DNA of 51,275 bases. Source: a virus. A model generated the notes under the pieces. It had not been told where the DNA came from, did not search any database, and saw nothing but the letters and a program-made list of their open reading frames with translations. The stretch lies in IMG/VR virus record IMGVR_UViG_3300050119_000272, positions 1 to 51,275 of that record; one strand, written 5' to 3'. This document shows, one piece after another, positions 45,630 through 49,553 of this stretch (its first letter is position 1; each line of letters opens with the position of its first letter). Both the position numbers and the translations under genes were made by a program.

Positions 45630-46004
45630 ATGCCGCACGAAACAGCAATGGCTCTGATCCGTCAGGAGCGTGACAGGCAGATCAAGGTCGAGGGCTGGAC
45701 GCGTGAGCATGACGATGAACACGATAACGGAGAAATGCTTCGCGCCGCCGTCATCTATCTTCATTGGGGCACCGATCGCCAGCAGCCGGTCATTGATGAC
45801 GAAACTGATCCGCGTGACGGGACGCCGGAAGGCTGGCCTTGGGATATGAAGTGGTGGAAGCCGAAGGATCGTGTCCGCAATCTCGAACGGGCGGGTGCTC
45901 TGTGTCTGGCGGAAAAAGACCGCCTTGCGCGCGCTGGCGGGTACTCGGGACACGTTGACCAGAAGTATGAATTGATCGTCGCTGCGCTTGACGCGGTTTT
46001 ATAG
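45630..46004 (+). CDS. Conserved phage protein of unknown function
   Basis: 124 residues. LIRQERDRQIKVEGWTREHD, NGEMLRAAVIYL, GWPWDMKWWKPKDRVRNLER and AGALCLAEKDRL form a pattern widely seen in phages of Gram-negative hosts. Helical, no known activity. Its own SD (AGAGGAG); same low-GC islet. Confidence 0.75.
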   Translation: MPHETAMALIRQERDRQIKVEGWTREHDDEHDNGEMLRAAVIYLHWGTDRQQPVIDDETDPRDGTPEGWPWDMKWWKPKDRVRNLERAGALCLAEKDRLARAGGYSGHVDQKYELIVAALDAVL

Positions 46005-46019
46005 GAAGGGAGGCGGGCC

Positions 46020-46241
46020 GTGCGTGATTATGAAGTTCACACCAGATGCAGAAAAACCGGCGCGTCGAAGGGCTATCGAAAGATTGCTGATCTCCCCACA
46101 CACGCGCTCTATTGGTTACGTGATTGTGACTGGAGCCGACCAGCGCCAATGGCGACCTCTCGCAACGAAGCCAGCCTTGAAGACATTCGTTCAAGAGTAT
46201 CTATCGAAATAACAGCACGCGCCATTGAGGGGCGCTTATAG
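46020..46241 (+). CDS. Hypothetical protein (GTG start)
   Basis: 73 residues from a GTG in the context GGGAGGCGGGCC-GTG, matching the starts at 46387 and 46612. ASKGYRKIADLPTHALYWLR suggests a small alpha/beta protein. An overlapping frame (45988-46212) is a weaker competitor. It is followed by the structured 146-base gap. Confidence 0.55.
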   Translation: MRDYEVHTRCRKTGASKGYRKIADLPTHALYWLRDCDWSRPAPMATSRNEASLEDIRSRVSIEITARAIEGRL

Positions 46242-46262
46242 CAACTGAAACATTTTGACATG

Positions 46263-46350
46263 GGCACACGGCGGCTTAGACCCAGAGATAACTTCATGCT
46301 CCGCCGTACCGGGATACAGAAGCAGGTCTAAACCCGGTGTACCGTGTGTC
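46263..46350 (+). promoter_or_regulatory. Structured leader RNA candidate: two hairpins with complementary loops, or alternative fold
   Basis: Hairpin A pairs 46268-46274 (ACGGCGG) with 46301-46307 (CCGCCGT). The adjacent hairpin B pairs 46308-46313 (ACCGGG) with 46333-46338 (CCCGGT). The loop of A holds TTAGACC (46276-46282) and the loop of B holds GGTCTAA (46325-46331), perfect 7-base complements. In an alternative fold, 46263-46271 pairs with 46342-46350 (CACACGG/CCGTGTG core) around the TTAGACC/GGTCTAA helix, excluding hairpin A. It lies 37 bases ahead of a GTG start. Confidence 0.55.
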
Positions 46351-46386
46351 TTTGTGAAAGTGGTTTACTAATGAAGGAGACGGGCC

Positions 46387-46599
46387 GTGGGTAAGATCAG
46401 GCTTGGCGTTACCGCACTCTCTCGACGCATCTTCGCTGGATACCCGAACAAAGCGGGTGACGGATTTAGAGGCGAGCGCCACGACGTAACTGGCGATGTT
46501 CTGAAAACTATCGCCGAGTACATCGGCATGGATCACGAAGAAACTGTCAATATAGACGGCAAGCCTGCATACACAATTACAGTCAAGAAAATCAGTTAA
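46387..46599 (+). CDS. Small conserved phage protein (GTG start)
   Basis: 70 residues behind AAGGAGACGGGCC-GTG. IRLGVTALSRRIFAGYPNKAG and ERHDVTGDVLKTIAEYIG, with NIDGKPAYTITVKKI at the end, resemble small conserved phage proteins of unknown role. The structured leader at 46263-46350 probably controls it. Confidence 0.65.
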   Translation: MGKIRLGVTALSRRIFAGYPNKAGDGFRGERHDVTGDVLKTIAEYIGMDHEETVNIDGKPAYTITVKKIS

Positions 46600-46611
46600 G
46601 GAGGCCCTGCC

Positions 46612-46863
46612 GTGACTTTGCTTGAACGTCTAAATGAGCGATGGGAACGGATGGACGGCGCTGCCGCAACCAAAATTGACCGCATCCTGAAAGATCGCCG
46701 TGAAGCCGCCGCTGAGATTGAGCATTTGCGCAGCGCATTGAAACTCGCGGCGGCCTACTGGTCCGACTATCACGTTCCTTGCGTCTACGAGGAATGGGAT
46801 AAAGATTGCGATTTATGTCCCGTCATTGGGGCGGTTCGCGCTGCTCTGGGAGATGATACATGA
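46612..46863 (+). CDS. Hypothetical coiled-coil protein
   Basis: 83 residues from GTG (GGAGGCCCTGCC-GTG). Helical N-terminal part (LERLNERWERMDGAAATKI, IEHLRSALKLAAAYW), with a C-terminal cysteine pair (DKDCDLCPV). No family recognised. Confidence 0.6.
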   Translation: MTLLERLNERWERMDGAAATKIDRILKDRREAAAEIEHLRSALKLAAAYWSDYHVPCVYEEWDKDCDLCPVIGAVRAALGDDT

Positions 46864-47081: not shown

Positions 47082-47366
47082 ATGACCCAACCACTGCCCG
47101 CCTCAGAGGCCTCACCAACCCCCTCCAAGAAGAAGGGGTTCGCGAAGGAGCGTCTGCGGTCCTTCGTCGACCGCATTGAGCGTCTCGATGAGGAGCGCGC
47201 CTCGCTCTCCGCCGACATCCGCGAGGTCTACACCGAGGCCAAGGGCGTGGGCTTTGACGCCCGCATCCTGCGTCAGGCCGTCCGTCTCCACAAGATGGAT
47301 AAGGCCGACTTCCAGGAGCAGGAGGCCATCCTTGACCTCTATCTGACCGCACTGGGGATGAGATGA
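47082..47366 (+). CDS. GapR-like (UPF0335/DUF2312) DNA-binding protein
   Basis: 94 residues. RLRSFVDRIERLDEERASLS, ADIREVYTEAKGVGFDARIL, RQAVRLHKM and EILDLYLTALGM-type sequence (here EAILDLYLTALGM) match GapR, the overtwisted-DNA-binding chromosome protein of alphaproteobacteria. It should bind the DNA ahead of polymerases and help topoisomerases; here it may support the phage's own topology system. Confidence 0.9.
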   Translation: MTQPLPASEASPTPSKKKGFAKERLRSFVDRIERLDEERASLSADIREVYTEAKGVGFDARILRQAVRLHKMDKADFQEQEAILDLYLTALGMR

Positions 47367-49481: not shown

Positions 49482-49490
49482 CTCAGACAA

Positions 49491-49527
49491 GAAGGGAACG
49501 GGTGATGAGCCCGTTCCCTTCTTCTTT
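49491..49527 (+). terminator. Rho-independent terminator
   Basis: GAAGGGAACGGG (49491-49502) pairs perfectly over 12 bases with CCCGTTCCCTTC (49510-49521), with a 7-base loop and the U-rich tail TTCTTTC. It follows the putative ssDNA-binding gene and reduces transcription into the primase gene. Confidence 0.88.
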
Positions 49528-49553
49528 CAGCGTCTCATAGGGATTCTATCGGG

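Follow-up and report, generated by a model that had tools for sequence, protein, structure and literature searches.

Does the intergenic gap ahead of the DUF7446 gene in this viral DNA hold a functional structured RNA, and if so, of what kind? The window, that is, the whole stretch of DNA that was analysed, is a single virus record of 51,275 bases. Contractile-tail structural proteins (sheath, portal, maturation protease and terminase) are coded on its minus strand, and a replication-type operon runs on the plus strand from about 40 kb, with a SNF2-like helicase, a T5orf172/MUG113 protein, the DUF7446 protein, a GapR-like DNA-binding protein, Pam3 gp33-like and gp34-like proteins and an AEP-type primase. 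The site of interest is the gap of 145 nt between a short ORF of no known family and the DUF7446 gene, both on the plus strand. A sequence-only reading had picked out 88 bases here as a novel structured RNA candidate: adjacent hairpins with perfectly complementary loops, and an outer helix competing with one of them.

No coding family was found across this site on either strand, and a coding sequence spanning it was dropped on that ground, as was an overlapping promoter, none being recognised in the gap region. No terminator-like site was found on the plus strand from 46213 to 46700, and a limited literature search returned no paper on DUF7446. The upstream ORF is overlapped by an alternative plus-strand frame (ATG at 46030 to a stop at 46212), and with neither frame giving a convincing family match the length of the gap is uncertain, being 145 or 174 nt. 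Two further observations were made in the operon. The GapR-like DNA-binding protein (47082-47366, Pfam E 8e-31) is phage-borne, and directly 3' of the gp34-like gene, at 49482-49530, there is a strong terminator-shaped inverted repeat with 21-nt arms and a 7-nt spacer that is missing from the list of the consensus terminator scan.

Letter-by-letter checking of the pairings bore out the helices that the sequence-only reading had listed: the seven Watson-Crick pairs of the hairpin A stem, a hairpin B stem of six pairs (46308-46313 with 46333-46338), the seven Watson-Crick pairs between the two loops, and an outer helix of nine pairs, one of them G-U (46263-46271 with 46342-46350). The downstream gene has a GTG start. 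What had been overlooked was the full extent of the outer helix, P1, which has 26 positions and 23 pairs (19 Watson-Crick and four G-U) interrupted by three single 1x1 mismatches, and most of which is also visible in inverted repeat I1 and in the centroid of a 208-nt fold. With P1 included the element is 122 nt long and nearly fills the gap, beginning 4 nt past the upstream stop codon and ending 6 nt before a presumed Shine-Dalgarno sequence. Given the four-pair form of hairpin A, all four helices are mutually compatible on paper: they would make up a three-way junction whose two hairpins are tied together at their tips, and the kissing helix may form in three dimensions. The parts are collected in Table 1.

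Table 1. Coordinates of the element, its parts and its neighbours in the window
Feature	Position	Strand	Remarks
Whole element	46246..46367	+	Outer stem of 26 positions, three-way junction, two hairpins whose loops are complementary
P1, 5' strand	46246..46271	+	Pairs with 46342-46367 (pair table); partly seen as inverted repeat I1
P1, 3' strand	46342..46367	+	From pair table
Hairpin A (P2)	46272..46306	+	Joint fold 46272-46275/46303-46306 (4 bp)
Hairpin A, alternative 7-bp stem	46268-46274/46301-46307	+	7 Watson-Crick pairs
Hairpin B (P3)	46307..46339	+	Stem 46307-46313/46333-46339; one G-U
Loop A kissing strand, UUAGACC	46276..46282	+	Complementary to loop B strand
Loop B kissing strand, GGUCUAA	46325..46331	+	Complementary to loop A strand
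Upstream ORF	46020..46241	+	73 aa, no family
AAGGAG, presumed Shine-Dalgarno sequence	46374..46379	+	6 nt past P1 end
Downstream gene	46387..46599	+	GTG start, 70 aa, DUF7446 (PF24233), Pfam E 1.1e-13

Whether this arrangement exceeds chance depends on how much of it is counted. The argument that four such helices in 88 bases are improbable was not borne out by comparison with shuffled sequence. When adjacent hairpins were required to have stems of 5 bp or more and a kissing match of 7 or more, two cases turned up in the window, and 100 dinucleotide shuffles averaged 1.71; the simple motif of adjacent hairpins with 7-base complementary loops is common in this GC-rich window and stands at chance level. 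The score for all four helices with a short P1, -53.9, ranks second among 1,066 plus-strand tiles. In 6 of 24 shuffled windows the best tile does as well or better, mainly as a result of the higher GC content of the remainder of the window; when the 145-nt gap alone was shuffled, none of 40,000 versions reached the score.

With a long P1 in which single mismatches are allowed, the architecture scores -64.5, the best of 1,764 tiles (882 per strand), and this score was reached in none of 60 shuffled windows and none of 20,000 local shuffles; an exponential fit to the tail gives, by extrapolation, a p of about 4e-7. The long-P1 setting was picked post hoc, after the 208-nt fold had been seen, and when P1 length and mismatch penalty were varied over four settings, the extrapolated p values ranged from 1e-5 to 3e-7. 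With P1 left out altogether, the extrapolated p is about 1e-4, and 1 of 10,000 shuffles reaches the score. A control set of 139 other loci (43,727 tiles, 1.29 Mb) yielded five non-redundant tiles whose raw scores were -64.4 or better; 43 of the loci (L100-L142) had entered the set through the kissing-strand pattern, which biases them towards pairings of this kind. For the 55 non-redundant control tiles at -56 or better, composition-matched extrapolated p values went no lower than 7e-6, compared with about 4e-7 for the element. Folding energy was examined as well: the minimum free energy of 119 nt (46248-46366) has a z-score of -3.74, with none of 200 shuffles as stable, and that of 106 nt a z-score of -2.39, whereas at 208 nt z is only -1.02 and the fold is unremarkable in that context. 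The element is more stable or more ordered than composition-matched shuffles, and it is in this form, on single-sequence statistics and given the full outer helix, that the proposal of a structured RNA candidate stands.

Relatives of the element were sought in several collections. Rfam 15 gave no matches in the window, and none in 46000-46700 at E values up to 10; blastn of the gap found nothing credible in phages or plasmids. Two covariance models, R1 and R2, were built from the single sequence and have little power. R1 found nothing in 2 records or in sets of 19, 15 and 55 loci, and in a search of 19 records it matched one, the window itself (L018 and L019, near copies of L017, were omitted from this search and included in that of the 19 loci). 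In genome samples R1 matched 1 of 8 genomes at E 8.4, 2 of 397 at E of 0.5 or less, and 2 of 385 at E of 0.05 or less. R2 matched none of 385 genomes and 1 of 387 (27.8 bits, E 0.001 per genome), at the same place as the best R1 match among the 397; across 70 sources (the window and 69 loci) it found the window only. These isolated weak matches are consistent with chance. The best of them (L040/L143) lies opposite an ORF that we take to be TPR-like and has no kissing match. Another (L041) has a hairpin B that resembled a compensated relative, yet it is antisense to a presumably inorganic-pyrophosphatase-like ORF, a third (L098) sits within an ORF that we assume to be sulfatase-like, and two more (L039 and L099) were judged on score and alignment alone.

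Searches by way of the flanking genes reached distant relatives. In the viral collection, the gp34-like protein gave one locus (L002), the closest relative that carries the flanking replication genes; the closest gp34 shares 57% identity, and in the record that it comes from this place is taken up by other small genes, with no match to the element. The DUF7446 protein and the proteins at 46612 and 46860 each gave none, the protein at 45630 gave 19 loci, and a two-row gp34 alignment gave 55. One DNA pattern around the kissing strands found nothing in that collection, and a second pattern of this sort returned 43 stretches, none of which showed the flanking stems on inspection by eye. In the genome collection, the DUF7446 alignment found none and the 45630 alignment 15 loci; the DUF7446 family was seen in 1 of 385 genomes at E of 0.001 or less and in none of the 385 over the cut-off, and tblastn found it in one phage and in no plasmid. 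The known-phage collection held distant relatives of the flanking genes only, with none of 442 records and none of 776 reaching 60% identity. No homologue was found by R1, R2 or blastn, and hence no covariation. The absence of homologues is nonetheless weak evidence, because single-sequence models lack power and the collections hold distant relatives only.

Two other patterns were noticed among the collected loci. In two gp34-relative loci (L060:4215-4280 and L063:6140-6225) a common hairpin lies right upstream of the gp34-like gene; its stem varies in sequence with the pairing kept, and its loop CGCCGCGC is complementary to a CCGCGCGG-type stretch that closely follows it, so that it is possibly a pseudoknotted, terminator-like element with a conserved loop. 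Around 5987-6047 of L101, a locus of the kissing-strand pattern, TTAGACC-type and GGTCTAA-type repeats alternate at close spacing, unrelated to the element in the window; such alternating repeats also occur in the viral contigs L100, L104, L107, L109, L111, L113, L115, L120 and L140.

Taken against these results, a selected RNA structure is probable. The opposing view, that the gap has no RNA function and that its pairings are chance complementarity or the relic of an insertion or decay in a little-constrained gap, draws on the single copy and the lack of any relative found, on the chance level of the simple motif and the shuffled windows that equal the version first described, and on the extended score having been chosen post hoc. 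Against it stands the full stem, whose score no shuffled window or local shuffle attained and which is robust to the settings. We regard this view as unlikely, although deserving of real weight.

A second possibility is that the inverted repeats act in DNA, as a replication origin, a protein-binding dyad or a recombination site. The repeats are nested and have long arms, the operon also codes for the GapR-like and gp34-like proteins and the AEP-type primase, and the folding z-scores of the two strands are alike (-3.47 on the plus strand and -3.30 on the minus strand). However, when the same architecture is scored on the minus strand it reaches -51.0 as against -64.5 on the plus strand, because G-U pairs turn into C-A there, and the five G-U pairs of P1 and P3 (four and one) would weaken a dyad in DNA. 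Moreover, the sequence of the element is not repeated elsewhere in the window beyond 12-nt matches (a repeat family was dropped for the same reason), no clear GC-skew extremum falls exactly at the site, and no integrase was found among the proteins scanned, which were part of the window's proteins. Strand scores, G-U pairs and the plus-strand orientation of both flanking ORFs together modestly favour a plus-strand RNA over a DNA dyad, and a DNA element is considered distinctly unlikely.

The proposal of a two-state switch found no support. The competition between the outer helix and hairpin A is real to the extent of a four-base overlap (46268-46271), but a compatible four-pair form of hairpin A exists and P1 wins in the computed ensemble, with a probability of about 1.0 compared with about 0 for the seven-pair form of the hairpin. 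In the centroid of the 208-nt fold, the Shine-Dalgarno sequence is not paired with the element. Two states, and a switch between them, are possible in the computed energies because the fold with a nested loop-loop helix, at -33.2 kcal/mol, is only about 2 kcal/mol worse than the junction fold at -35.2 kcal/mol. A riboswitch-like leader in which these two folds alternate and set expression of the DUF7446 gene could draw on their near equality and on the position directly before the Shine-Dalgarno sequence. It is quite improbable, however, in view of the dominance of P1, the lack of a plus-strand terminator-like site in the gap, a Shine-Dalgarno sequence that the element leaves free in that centroid, the lack of any Rfam riboswitch match even at E 10, and a downstream gene, DUF7446, that is not metabolic. 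The purine riboswitch aptamer, which we take to be Rfam family RF00167, is like the element in having P1 followed by two side-by-side hairpins with interacting loops, but the loop contact of the element would be seven Watson-Crick pairs and its P1 has 26 positions; neither an Rfam match nor a conserved junction core was found, and no ligand core was seen. PMC5480868 gives side-by-side hairpins with touching loops as the purine-riboswitch plan, in keeping with a riboswitch-like leader. Highly doubtful is the further claim of a new class of phage cis-regulatory RNA, in which a 122-nt element with a kissing-locked junction head would swap to a nested hairpin and so switch processing or translation of the DUF7446 message; the near-equal computed fold energies are the sole positive evidence for it.

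Other known RNAs offer partial likenesses. For the pistol ribozyme, presumably Rfam family RF02679, the combination of three stems, a loop pseudoknot and a conserved core was not found in the element, which has no Rfam match, no third stem at the corresponding place and one nucleotide between 46325-46331 and P3 at 46333. As described in PMC6154101, the ribozyme, often found near phage genes, forms a six-pair pseudoknot between a hairpin-loop strand and a downstream region, and the pairing of a hairpin-loop strand with a downstream region is what the element would have in common with it. An antitermination RNA like put of phage HK022, modifying RNA polymerase during transcription of the early operon, is very improbable: the put RNAs, in the portion of PMC9378689 consulted, are about 70 nt with two stem-loops in early transcripts, and the element, as a predicted RNA, has two abutting stem-loops inside the replication operon with the terminator-shaped hairpin of 49482-49530 downstream, but that portion describes put near early promoters, with no closing stem or kissing (the word "kissing" is absent from the text), whereas the element lies far within its operon and no promoter was recognised upstream on the plus strand.

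The reading we tentatively prefer is a cis-acting intercistronic RNA, most likely an element of mRNA processing or stability; about half of the confidence placed in a selected structure extends to such a role. On this proposal a plus-strand polycistronic transcript would carry the structured RNA in the gap before the DUF7446 gene, its imperfect stem of 26 positions closing a three-way junction from which two hairpins project side by side, their tips tied by the 7-bp kissing helix. The long irregular stem would serve as the site at which a double-strand-specific RNase of the RNase III type binds or cuts. The DUF7446 message would thereby gain a separate 5' end shortly before its Shine-Dalgarno sequence, the upstream message would be left with a structured 3' end, and the compact kissing head may serve as a rigid, protective cap. 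The nearest parallel considered is R1.1 of phage T7, an RNase III site between genes 1.0 and 1.1 of the early region whose stem has an irregular internal loop (PMC6121014, PMC8708148), a structured RNA of 60 nt with a 4/5-nt internal loop (PMC6121014). Like R1.1, the element is intercistronic in what would be a phage polycistronic transcript and has a long irregular stem; unlike R1.1, it bears at the top of this stem a junction from which two hairpins rise, possibly joined by a kissing helix. Two features of a T7-type RNase III site, an intercistronic position and a long double-stranded stem, are present here (23 pairs in 26 positions, within the 145-nt gap), and by this analogy the element appears to resemble the T7 sites, with putative cleavage. 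No description of it was found in a literature search that was not exhaustive.

In summary, this orphan candidate would be a structured intercistronic phage RNA, a kind already known. If the processing reading is the whole of it, the element would be of an ordinary kind with an unusual cap. If the structure is as proposed, it would represent an orphan phage RNA of unusual plan, a long stem bearing a head of kissing hairpins, placed between cistrons and outside every Rfam family, and it would provide a compact case for testing whether functional RNAs of viruses without close relatives can be found by architecture statistics on single sequences.
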